Shown: piece by piece, positions 47,352-51,689 of the stretch
Position numbering within the stretch: position 1 is the stretch's first letter
Layout: the number at the start of each line of letters is the position of its first letter
Made by a program: the position numbers and the translations under genes
Notes under the pieces: model-generated
Database searches by the model: none
What the model was told of the DNA's origin: nothing
The model's input: only the letters and a program-made list of their open reading frames with translations
DNA from: Thiobacillus sp.
Lineage (GTDB): Bacteria > Pseudomonadota > Gammaproteobacteria > Burkholderiales > Thiobacillaceae
Length of the DNA: 64,000 nt
Direction: 5' to 3'
Assembly: GCA_024708885.1 (NCBI GenBank)
Contig: JANJXT010000063.1
Location: 62,001 to 126,000, forward strand

Positions 47352-47421
47352 CACCGGCGCGGGCACCGGCGTGCCCGCCGAATCGGGGTATGCTGTGCGG
47401 TTTCCATTCCGCACTGTGCGC

Positions 47422-48861
47422 ATGGCTGCCGGTCCCTACTATCCGCGCTCGTTCACCATCCTGGTCATCGTCGCCATGGGCGTGCTGATCGTGCCGCTCG
47501 CCAGCGGCCTCATCAACGTCGTGCACGTGCTGCAGGACGTGGTCGACACGCAGCGCCGGTTCACGCACAACAGCCTCGCCGTCACGCGCGACGTGCGTCA
47601 GGTGGGCGAATCGGTGAGCCAGTTCCAGCGCGCCACCGGCCAGTATCACCTGCTGCGCGATGCCGAATTCGGCGATGCCCTGGAACGCGCCTACGCCGGC
47701 CTGCGCGCGCGCCTGGCGCAGCTCGACGCGCCGCTTCGCGACGCCACCGCGCGTGCGACGCTGGCGCGCCTCGACCGCGGCAGCGCGGCGCTGTACCGTA
47801 CGGTGCACCCTGGCCGCTTTCTCGACAGCGCGCGCTTTCATGCGCTGGAATCCGAATTCGCCGCGCTGCACGCCGACGCCCGCATGCTGCAGGAGCAGGC
47901 CGACGCCGCCGTGCAGGACGAACAGCAGGCACTGGAGGCTGCGATGCAGTCCACCCGCGAGCGCCTGATCGCGCTCGGCCTCGCACTGGTGCCGCTGACG
48001 CTCCTGCTGGCCGCGGTGTTCTCCTGGCTGATCAACCGCCCCATCCGCCAGCTCAAGGCGGCAATCCAGCAGCTCGGGCAGGCCAACCTCGCGCCGCTGC
48101 CGGCGATCAGCGGTCCGCAGGACATGGTCGAGCTGGGACGCGAAATCGACTGGCTGCGCCAGCGCCTGCAGGCGCTGGAAGCGCAGAAGACGCGCTTCCT
48201 GCGCCACGTCTCGCACGAACTGAAGACCCCGCTCGCCTCGCTGCGCGAGGGCGTCGCACTTCTCGACGACGAGCTCGCCGGCCGCCTCAACGCCCGCCAG
48301 CGCGACATCGTCACCATCATGGACCAGGGCAGCCGCGACCTGCAGCGGCGCATCGAGGAACTCATCCGCTACGGCAGCATGGTGCGCGAACCCGTCCGGG
48401 CGGCAACCGCCGAACAACCGCTGGCGGACGTGGCGGACAGCGTGCTGGCGCGCCATCGGCTCGCGCTCGACGCACGCCGCCTCACGGTCGACACGGCGTT
48501 CGACGCCGCCACCGTGTGCGCGGATCGCGCGCAACTGGAAACTGCACTGGACAATCTGTTGTCCAACGCGGTGCGCTTCAGCCCCGAGGGCGGCCGCATC
48601 CTGGTGAAGAGCACGCCGCAGGAGGGCGCAGTCGCGCTGTGGGTGTGCGACATGGGCCCGGGCATTCCCGCCGCCGAGCGTGATCGCGTGTTCGAGCCGT
48701 TTTTCCAGGGTGCGCACCAGCCCGCCAGCGCCGTCAAGGGCAGCGGCCTTGGGCTGTCGATCGTGCGCGAAGCGCAGCTCGCGGCCGGCGGCAGCGCCGA
48801 AGTCGTCGACTGCACGCCGTGGTCGACCTGTTTTTGTTTAACCTGGCCCGCCTTACCGTGA
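47422..48861 (+). CDS. glrK: sensor histidine kinase (GlrK/QseE-like)
   Basis: two TM; FLRHVSHELKTPLASLREGVALLDD; NAVRFSPEGG; GSGLGLSIVREA; linked to qseG/glrR-like genes. Confidence 0.85.
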   Translation: MAAGPYYPRSFTILVIVAMGVLIVPLASGLINVVHVLQDVVDTQRRFTHNSLAVTRDVRQVGESVSQFQRATGQYHLLRDAEFGDALERAYAGLRARLAQLDAPLRDATARATLARLDRGSAALYRTVHPGRFLDSARFHALESEFAALHADARMLQEQADAAVQDEQQALEAAMQSTRERLIALGLALVPLTLLLAAVFSWLINRPIRQLKAAIQQLGQANLAPLPAISGPQDMVELGREIDWLRQRLQALEAQKTRFLRHVSHELKTPLASLREGVALLDDELAGRLNARQRDIVTIMDQGSRDLQRRIEELIRYGSMVREPVRAATAEQPLADVADSVLARHRLALDARRLTVDTAFDAATVCADRAQLETALDNLLSNAVRFSPEGGRILVKSTPQEGAVALWVCDMGPGIPAAERDRVFEPFFQGAHQPASAVKGSGLGLSIVREAQLAAGGSAEVVDCTPWSTCFCLTWPALP

Positions 48862-48885: not shown

Positions 48886-49049
48886 CAACCTATATTCCGC
48901 ACCACAGAGGCGCAGAGAAACCGGAGAAACCGGGATTCTCCGTGCTTTTTCCCCACTCACCCGTCGGGTGAACCAAGGAAAGAATGCAAGCGCATGTTTT
49001 TCTCTCCGTTCTCTGTGTCTCTGTGGTTCAACTGCTTTTTCCAGGTTCA
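48886..49049 (-). repeat. dispersed element family A, copy 3 (inverted)
   Basis: reverse complement begins TGAACCTGGAAAAAGCAGTTGAACCACAGAGACACAGAGAACGG and ends CTCTGTGGTGCGGAATATAGGTTGAA. Confidence 0.9.
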
Positions 49050-49514
49050 ATGAATCCGACGCCCTACCTCCTTGCCGCGGCCTTGTTGCTGGGCGGCTGC
49101 GCCGCCCTCGAGCAGCCCGCGCTTCCGGTCGTCGAGACCCGCCTGGGGCCGGCGACGCTGGCCGGGGAGCTTGCGCGCGTGGCCGCGCTCACGCCTGAAC
49201 AGCGCCGGCGCGAACTCGCCGCGCTGGACGCCGAGCGGCGCCTCGACGACGCCAGGCGCTTTCAGCAGGCCGCCCTCCTGGAGCGCGAGGACAGCGTCGA
49301 CGCCCACGAGCGCGCCCTGAAGAGCCTGGCCGCGATCGACGACGTGACCCCGCGCGCACGCGCGGTGATCGACCTCTTGAAGCGCGGGCTGCGCGCGCGC
49401 ATCGAGCTGCGCCAGCAAAGCGCGCAGGCACAGGTCTTGCAGGAAAAACTCGACCAGATCAAGGCGCTGGAAAAATCCCTGCAGCAGCACAACGCACCGA
49501 CCCGGACACCATGA
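49050..49514 (+). CDS. small lipoprotein (QseG-like)
   Basis: AAALLLGGCAAL lipobox; helical C-term; between kinase and response regulator. Confidence 0.75.
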   Translation: MNPTPYLLAAALLLGGCAALEQPALPVVETRLGPATLAGELARVAALTPEQRRRELAALDAERRLDDARRFQQAALLEREDSVDAHERALKSLAAIDDVTPRARAVIDLLKRGLRARIELRQQSAQAQVLQEKLDQIKALEKSLQQHNAPTRTP

Positions 49515-49533: not shown

Positions 49534-50886
49534 ATGAAGAAACCGTCCATCCTCGTCGTCGACGACGATGCGGCGCTGCGCGCGCTGATCACCCTGCGCC
49601 TGGAGGCGAACGGCTTTCGCGTCGACGCCGTCGACGGCGGCGAGGCGGCGCTCGCGCAGCTGGCGCTCGCGCGCCCCGACGCGGTGCTGACCGACATGCA
49701 GATGCAGGGCATGGACGGCATGGCGCTGTTCCGTGCCATCCATGCGCGCGATCCGGCGCTGCCGGTGATCGTGCTGACCGCGCACGGCACCATTCCCGAC
49801 GCGGTCGCGGCCACACAGCAAGGCCTGTTCGGCTATCTCACCAAACCCTACGACGCACCCACCCTCATCGACCTGCTCAAGCGCGCCACGCGGCTCGCGG
49901 GCAGCGCCACCGACGCCGCGGACGACACGTGGCGCAGCGAGATCGTCACCGCCAGCCCGGCGATGGAAACGCTGCTCGCCGAGACGCGGCTCGCCGCGCA
50001 GAGCGGTGCCGCGCTCCTCGTCCAGGGCGAGTCGGGCACCGGCAAGGAACTGCTCGCGCGCGCCATCCACCGCGCCAGCCCGCGCCACGCCCGCCCCTTC
50101 GTCGCGATCAACTGCGGCGCGATTCCGGCCGAGCTGCTCGAATCCGAGCTGTTCGGCCACATGAAGGGCGCCTTCACCGGCGCCGCGCGCGACCACCCGG
50201 GCCTGTTCCAGAGCGCCGACGGCGGCACCGTGTTCCTCGACGAGGTCGGCGACATGCCGCTGCCGCTGCAGGTCAAGCTCTTGCGCGTGCTGCAGGAAGG
50301 GGAAGTGCGCCCGGTCGGCGCCACCGCAGCGCGCAGGGTGGACGTGCGCATCCTCTCCGCCACCCACCGCGACCTCGACGAGGCGATCGCCGAGGGCCGC
50401 TTCCGCGAAGACCTGTATTACCGTCTCAACGTCGTCAACCTCACGCTGCCGCCGCTGCGCGAACGGCGCGAGGACATCCCGCTCCTGGCGCAGCACTTCC
50501 TCGCCACGCTCGCCGCCCGCTACCAGCGGCGCATCCACGGTTTCGCCCCCGACGCCCTCGACATGCTCGCCGCAGCGGACTGGCCGGGCAACATCCGCCA
50601 ACTGCACAACGTACTGGAGCAGTGCGTCGCACTGTGCCCGACTCCGACCATCCCCGCCGCGCTGGTGGCACGCGCGCTGCGCGACAAGCCTGCGGAGATC
50701 CAGCCACTCGCCGAAGCGCGCGCCGGCTTCGAGCGCGACTACCTCATCAGCCTGCTCAAGCTCACCCGCGGCCAGGCGAGCGAAGTCGCGCGGCTGGCCG
50801 GGCGCAACCGCACCGAGGTCTATCGCCTATTGCAGCGTCACGGCCTCGATCCCGCGCTGTTCCGCAACCGCGACGACGCCGGTTGA
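49534..50886 (+). CDS. glrR: sigma-54-dependent response regulator (GlrR/QseF-like)
   Basis: receiver ILVVDDDAALRALI; AAA+ GESGTGKELLARAIH and GAFTGAARDHPGLFQSADGGTVFLDEVGDMP; C-term HTH. Confidence 0.92.
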   Translation: MKKPSILVVDDDAALRALITLRLEANGFRVDAVDGGEAALAQLALARPDAVLTDMQMQGMDGMALFRAIHARDPALPVIVLTAHGTIPDAVAATQQGLFGYLTKPYDAPTLIDLLKRATRLAGSATDAADDTWRSEIVTASPAMETLLAETRLAAQSGAALLVQGESGTGKELLARAIHRASPRHARPFVAINCGAIPAELLESELFGHMKGAFTGAARDHPGLFQSADGGTVFLDEVGDMPLPLQVKLLRVLQEGEVRPVGATAARRVDVRILSATHRDLDEAIAEGRFREDLYYRLNVVNLTLPPLRERREDIPLLAQHFLATLAARYQRRIHGFAPDALDMLAAADWPGNIRQLHNVLEQCVALCPTPTIPAALVARALRDKPAEIQPLAEARAGFERDYLISLLKLTRGQASEVARLAGRNRTEVYRLLQRHGLDPALFRNRDDAG

Positions 50887-50906
50887 AGGCCTCCGCCCCG
50901 GCAATC

Positions 50907-50924
50907 CGTCGCCAGCAGGCGACA
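50907..50924. promoter_or_regulatory. GlrR-type site (1 mismatch)
   Basis: CGTC-GCCAGCAGGC-GACA against TGTC-N10-GACA. Confidence 0.5.
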
Positions 50925-50968
50925 ATTTAAGCCCTTCAAAACAATCGCTTGCGCCGGCTTGCCGTATC

Positions 50969-50986
50969 TGTCGCCGCAGCGCGACA
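50969..50986. promoter_or_regulatory. GlrR-type site
   Basis: TGTC-GCCGCAGCGC-GACA, exact TGTC-N10-GACA. Confidence 0.65.
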
Positions 50987-51071
50987 AAGAACCGCTCGAG
51001 ACACGTCCACGATCCGTCTTCGCGCCGCCCGCCGGCCGGCAAACAATTGATTAATCAAGCAAAAGAGAAAC

Positions 51072-51087
51072 TGGCATGGTTGTCGCT
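51072..51087 (+). promoter_or_regulatory. sigma-54 -24/-12 promoter
   Basis: TGGCATGGTTGTCGCT: GG-N10-GC; upstream of EF-hand gene. Confidence 0.65.
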
Positions 51088-51145
51088 AGACATGCTCCGG
51101 ATGCTGTCGCATTCAACCTCTAGCCTACTCAGGAGATACACCGAA

Positions 51146-51433
51146 ATGAAGCCCGTTTCCCATCACATCCGCAATCTGGTCCTGTTGTGCGCGCTGGGTG
51201 CGTTCGCCGCACCGGCAGCGCTTGCCCGCTCCCCCATGGCCGACTTCAAGACCACGGACGCCAACGGCGACGGCCGCGTCAGCCTGGAGGAATTCCAGGC
51301 CGCCGGCGGCAGCGAAGCGAGCTTCGCTGCAGGCGACGCCAACCAGGACAAGGAATTGAGCCGCGACGAATTCGCCCGCGCCGCCGCGAGCCGCGACCGC
51401 ATGCAGCCCGGCGGGACGACGCAAGGTGAATGA
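51146..51433 (+). CDS. exported EF-hand domain protein
   Basis: signal peptide; DANGDGRVSLEEF and DANQDKELSRDEF. Confidence 0.88.
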   Translation: MKPVSHHIRNLVLLCALGAFAAPAALARSPMADFKTTDANGDGRVSLEEFQAAGGSEASFAAGDANQDKELSRDEFARAAASRDRMQPGGTTQGE

Positions 51434-51434
51434 G

Positions 51435-51689
51435 ATGACTGATACTGACGTCTCCGCCGCGTCCCGGCGCGCCATCATCGGCACGCTCGCCGTGCTCACC
51501 GGGCTGCTGACGCTTCATGGCTGCGACAACGCCGGCCCCATCGATCAGGCGGCGGAACAGGCCGCCCGGCAGGCACAGGACAACGCCGTCGAGCAGGTCG
51601 ACGGCACGGCAGCCGGGCCGGATCCGGCGGCAACCCAGCCGGGATCGGCTCCAGCCGAGGCGGAAAAGGAGGATCCGCACACGCCGTAA
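51435..51689 (+). CDS. small putative lipoprotein
   Basis: RRAIIGTLAVLTGLLTLHGCDNAG lipobox; overlaps or adjoins the EF-hand gene. Confidence 0.6.
   Translation: MTDTDVSAASRRAIIGTLAVLTGLLTLHGCDNAGPIDQAAEQAARQAQDNAVEQVDGTAAGPDPAATQPGSAPAEAEKEDPHTP

Follow-up and report, generated by a model that had tools for sequence, protein, structure and literature searches.

The window analysed here, a stretch of 64,000 nucleotides, holds a glrK/qseE-like kinase gene, a small lipoprotein gene and a glrR/qseF-like regulator gene in this order, followed by an intergenic region with two palindromic enhancer sites (UAS1 and UAS2), further predicted regulatory elements and a two-gene operon (Table 1). The initial annotation had proposed that a GlrR-type UAS pair and a sigma-54 promoter drive the first gene of that operon. 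The UAS pair, the IHF-like segment, the -24/-12 element and the EF-hand ATG were all recovered base for base, and translation and Pfam confirmed an exported EF-hand product followed by a lipoprotein.

Table 1. Genes and predicted regulatory features of the glrR locus and the downstream operon (positions in the window).
Feature	Position	Strand	Remarks
glrK/qseE-like sensor histidine kinase gene	47371..48861	+	HisKA, HATPase_c, HAMP; start uncertain
Small lipoprotein gene, qseG position	49050..49514	+	lipobox-like LLGGCA; positional analogue only
glrR/qseF-like response regulator gene, sigma-54 activator	49534..50886	+	Response_reg + Sigma54_activat; stop codon 50884-50886
UAS1 CGTCGCCAGCAGGCGACA	50907..50924		one mismatch to TGTC-N10-GACA; kept in relatives
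UAS2 TGTCGCCGCAGCGCGACA	50969..50986		exact TGTC-N10-GACA; kept in relatives
Predicted IHF site	51040..51052	-	CAAACAATTGATT on + strand; exact YAA-N4-TTGATW
Predicted sigma-54 -24/-12 element TGGCATGGTTGTCGCT	51072..51087	+	two mismatches to TGGCACGNNNNTTGCW; near-invariant in relatives
Stem-loop GGATGC-TGTC-GCATTC, predicted transcript 5' end	51099..51114	+	folds in relatives; predicted start ~51098
Exported EF-hand protein gene, 95 aa, signal peptide	51146..51433	+	EF loops DANGDGRVSLEE, DANQDKELSRDE; EF-hand_1/EF-hand_5 above cut-off
Small lipoprotein gene, 84 aa, operon gene 2	51435..51689	+	lipobox LTLHGC; no Pfam family

By sequence comparison, the protein encoded just upstream of the switch is a GlrR orthologue. 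It aligns with E. coli GlrR with 54.5% identity over 442 aa, carries the GAFTGA motif and has a near-identical recognition helix (GRNRTEVYRLLQRH vs GRNRTEFYKLLSRH in E. coli). Its architecture is REC, AAA sigma-54 activator and C-terminal HTH, the latter placed by alignment to E. coli GlrR, as a Pfam search of the regulator returned no HTH match. GlrR was also its best NCBIfam model, with 584.5 bits, which is under the equivalog cut-off of 763 bits. Since no genome among the 184 sampled from this class passed the cut-off and, of 14 controls, only E. coli did, it appears to be tuned to enterobacterial sequences. Lower-scoring matches of the GlrR search (L147-L166), often found beside other genes (e.g. 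for HPt-like proteins) and devoid of sites, were dropped as orthologues. The neighbouring kinase shares 39% identity with E. coli GlrK over 294 aa, and rpoN was found in the genome. The order of kinase, lipoprotein and regulator genes resembles that of the GlrK/GlrR-glmY system of E. coli and other Enterobacterales; however, unlike in E. coli glrK-qseG-glrR, the lipoprotein is not recognisable as QseG, to which it shows no sequence similarity. Between the kinase and lipoprotein genes (48890-49035), we also observed an imperfect inverted repeat, CACAGAGGCGCAGAGAAAC ... TTCTCTGTGTCTCTGTGG. A similar repeat lies elsewhere in the sampled sequences (L083, on G000:C21), so that this element is probably a dispersed repeat.

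The IHF, GlrR and sigma-54 sites are predicted sites, at which binding is presumed from their sequences. Both palindromes, each 18 bp, are better described as TGTCGC-N6-GCGACA, of which UAS2 is the sole exact copy in the 2.56-Mb genome. An exact match to the IHF consensus lies between UAS2 and the promoter, within the AT-rich segment, and the -24/-12 element is separated from the EF-hand ATG by 58 nt. In the window species, UAS1 and the -12 element both deviate from the consensus, which weighs against a GlrR reading. We considered whether the palindromes and the -24/-12 match arose by chance and have no function. Taken alone, TGTC-N10-GACA occurs three times in the window where 0.61 copies are expected, the other two copies being intragenic. 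However, two UAS with at most one mismatch and a suitably placed sigma-54 site did not occur together in any of 20,000 regions simulated as Markov sequences with the length and dinucleotide composition of this one, and of 29 glrR loci in the genus, 27 have the arrangement. These simulations, the controls at other NtrC-family genes described below and, most strongly, the conservation all contradict chance, and we rejected this explanation as having next to no probability.

The sequence downstream of glrR was aligned in a first set of 18 loci from the genus and shows four conserved blocks, namely UAS1, UAS2, the IHF-type motif and the sigma-54 element. UAS2 and the promoter were kept in all 18 and both UAS (with no more than one mismatch) in 17, while nine of 11 same-genus loci added later kept the whole arrangement. 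The spacing is nearly fixed across the genus, with 62-64 bp between UAS1 and UAS2 and 84-86 bp from UAS2 to the -24 element (74 bp in L004). The IHF-like segment of the initial annotation holds an exact YAA-N4-TTGATW. Allowing one mismatch, 12 of the 18 relatives have this motif (seven exactly), mostly at the same distance of 32 bp from the -24 element, whereas roughly one relative in three has a weak motif or none. Judged from these alignments, the post-glrR switch is a conserved and functional-looking sequence.

The same geometry was found with the same script at the E. coli glmY promoter, where TGTCGCTTTCTGGCGACA and TGTCTCTTTTTAGCGACA lie 63 bp apart and 89 bp from TGGCACAGTTACTGCA. These values match those of the genus, indicating that the enhancer geometry is common to both systems, which share TGTC-N10-GACA sites 63 bp apart, IHF and a sigma-54 promoter about 85-89 bp further on. 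QseF together with IHF is reported to bind TGTN12ACA sites at glmY (PMC6075780), TGTCN10GACA is the form of the site given in PMC8745638, and studies in E. coli and Proteus cover this consensus, the assistance by IHF and phosphorylation (PMC6075780, PMC8745638). Phylogenetic footprinting and the glmY geometry together give good support to a GlrR-type UAS pair with IHF and sigma-54 sites before an exported EF-hand gene. The two systems also differ as follows. First, the promoter here would drive genes for an exported EF-hand protein and a lipoprotein instead of the small RNA GlmY of E. coli. Second, the promoter stands after glrR here but before glrK in the glmY system. Third, there are two UAS here and three in E. 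coli. The QseF-activated rpoE P2 promoter of E. coli serves envelope homeostasis via similar UAS (PMC6075780), but its target is a sigma factor, unlike the EF-hand operon. At the gathering threshold, Rfam returned no match to GlmY or any other family across the whole window (GlmY scored 146 bits in the E. coli control), and a GlmY-like RNA was rejected; the only sub-threshold match, to a Burkholderia sRNA, lies inside the EF-hand gene (E 0.11).

The stem-loop at the predicted transcript start folds in 17 of the 18 relatives, with modest covariation, and may possibly provide the EF-hand mRNA with a stabilising 5' end. A stem-loop tendency at the transcript start was also seen at genus promoters of a bactofilin gene and of a gene for a small exported protein (mean z of -1.2 and -2.2; controls 0.6 and -0.1). 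As this tendency was not significant at the DUF1328 and opgG genes, weak outside the genus and missing in most other families, a 5' stem-loop was rejected as a general feature of GlrR targets. The EF-hand operon could also be transcribed mainly from another promoter, either of the sigma-70 type or further upstream, to which the sigma-54 site would add little. At E. coli glmY, a weak sigma-70 promoter indeed exists beside the sigma-54 one (PMC6075780), and read-through from glrR is a possible source of EF-hand transcript. Against this, nothing else between glrR and the EF-hand gene is as well conserved in the same-genus alignment as the sigma-54 element and the enhancers, and the conserved stem-loop begins right at the predicted sigma-54 start. 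We consider such a main promoter unlikely and retain the GlrR-dependent sigma-54 promoter.

The EF-hand product appears to be of the calcium-binding type, as predicted from two loops of 12 residues with D/N at positions 1, 3 and 5 and E at position 12. A signal peptide with two EF loops is also the build of small exported EF-hand proteins (Pfam EF-hand_1/5). In relatives, the operon consists of one to three EF-hand genes followed by a lipoprotein gene of the same type, and EF-hand and BON are fused in one exported protein after a GlrR-type promoter in three same-genus loci (L005, L007, L017) and in L123. Many relatives have a DUF1328 gene between glrR and the EF-hand gene, with its own sigma-54 element and its own UAS, which overlaps the glrR stop; neither the window species nor L003, the nearest relative sampled, has this gene there.

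Scanning genomes for UAS near sigma-54 elements, as the initial annotation had proposed, brought out recurring targets such as bactofilin, but the pattern alone was too noisy. Across the genus genomes, the pattern-only search had a high background, with overlapping counts for true and reversed patterns, and therefore only targets recurring across genomes were retained. Bactofilin genes across the genus have UAS and sigma-54 elements, among them that of the window's own genome (G000:C30: TGTCACATTTCAACGACA, CGTCGCCATTAGGCGACG, TGGCACGGCTGTTGCC); wherever two UAS were detected, they lie 76-88 bp apart. A gene for a small exported Gly/Ala-rich protein has paired UAS 65-66 bp apart in the genus. 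The opgGH genes bear a UAS pair in one same-genus genome only, the other genus opgG copies being without it. In G041, which is 99% complete, no glrR was detected, yet the bactofilin promoter bears UAS; this may reflect an assembly gap at glrR or another activator. Besides the cytoskeletal bactofilin, the predicted function of the targets is exported, small-membrane or periplasmic-glucan. Because the same sites precede bactofilin in this genome and DUF1328 and other genes in relatives, the EF-hand switch would belong to a cell-envelope regulon. Separately, at two loci (L073 on G045:C95 and L074 on G013:C46), a TGTCATGACA-type palindrome is followed by a sigma-54-like site and by a gene for a small exported 'AEAQQ' protein; this palindrome type was set aside, being probably the regulon of another activator.

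Outside the genus, we searched 900 bp after each gene for a UAS with at most one mismatch and a sigma-54 element with at most two mismatches 55-110 bp further. Such a pair was found downstream of 19 of 51 GlrR orthologues but of none of the 50 other NtrC-family genes examined; the reverse complements held none, and the mean in shuffles was 0.0. Exported EF-hand genes stand beside glrR in at least 10 loci outside the genus, not all of them among the 19 (L117, L119, L123, L124, L125, L128, L132, L134, L141 and Wenzhouxiangella sediminis L180; called from the sequence motif alone at L132, L134 and L141). Other glrR loci carry opgH, as read from sequence (Variovorax, Pseudorhodoferax, Pseudacidovorax), opgG (L135, L139) or a BON-looking protein (Herbaspirillum). 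The glrR loci of Halomonas, Kushneria and Neptuniibacter had no such sites, so the arrangement is common and not universal. In L118, L120 and L146, the UAS and sigma-54 element after glrR stand several hundred bases before ybgC, with no convincing ORF between; these promoters could drive an unannotated small RNA, and Rfam found nothing at the three loci.

These distributions also bear on whether the sigma-54 promoter is real but its palindromes are used by another NtrC-family regulator, or shared with GlrR. The GlrR query had 43 matches in the window's own genome, where about 40 activators of the superfamily are apparently present and a paralogue could share the palindromes, and the bactofilin promoter of G041 points the same way. 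However, the sites adjoin glrR in many families and none of the other activator genes tested, and their half-sites and spacing agree with the characterised GlrR sites of E. coli (PMC6075780, PMC8745638). We therefore regard another or a shared regulator as quite improbable. Very probably, this region holds a sigma-54 promoter that depends on GlrR and at which phosphorylated GlrR and IHF activate the EF-hand-lipoprotein operon as part of an envelope regulon.

From sequence, conservation, spacing and orthology, we infer the following order of events. GlrR, encoded just upstream, would receive its phosphate from the neighbouring GlrK-type kinase and, once activated, bind the two TGTCGC-N6-GCGACA sites. 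By bending the AT-rich stretch that separates UAS2 from the promoter, IHF would bring GlrR into contact with RNA polymerase-sigma-54 at TGGCATG-N4-TCGC. Transcription would start near 51098 and yield the exported EF-hand protein and the lipoprotein, with a presumed role in the envelope or in calcium binding.

To our knowledge, almost all that is known of GlrKR/QseEF comes from enteric bacteria and concerns the glmY and rpoE targets. Our literature search, a few co-mentions aside, found no link of GlrR/QseF to EF-hand proteins, bactofilin or opgGH. The EF-hand operon had been annotated as a possibly rewired target; read as a lineage-specific rewiring, this view did not stand: promoters of the predicted GlrR and sigma-54 type precede exported EF-hand, BON, OpgGH and other envelope genes in many families outside Enterobacterales. 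Since EF-hand cargo is frequent there, 'rewired' is unsupported as stated, and it may just as well be the glmY wiring that is derived. On a broader reading, to which we give an even chance, GlrKR outside Enterobacterales would be a widely distributed envelope regulator, with exported EF-hand, BON, OpgG/OpgH, DUF1328 and bactofilin genes under the control of its conserved enhancer-promoter cassette. A number of these transcripts would start with a 5' stem-loop, and E. coli glmY would be one cargo on an older cassette. A deeply conserved cassette with the same geometry and different, envelope-directed cargo would offer a testable answer to what GlrKR does elsewhere, with the EF-hand operon and bactofilin as ready experimental targets in free-living bacteria.
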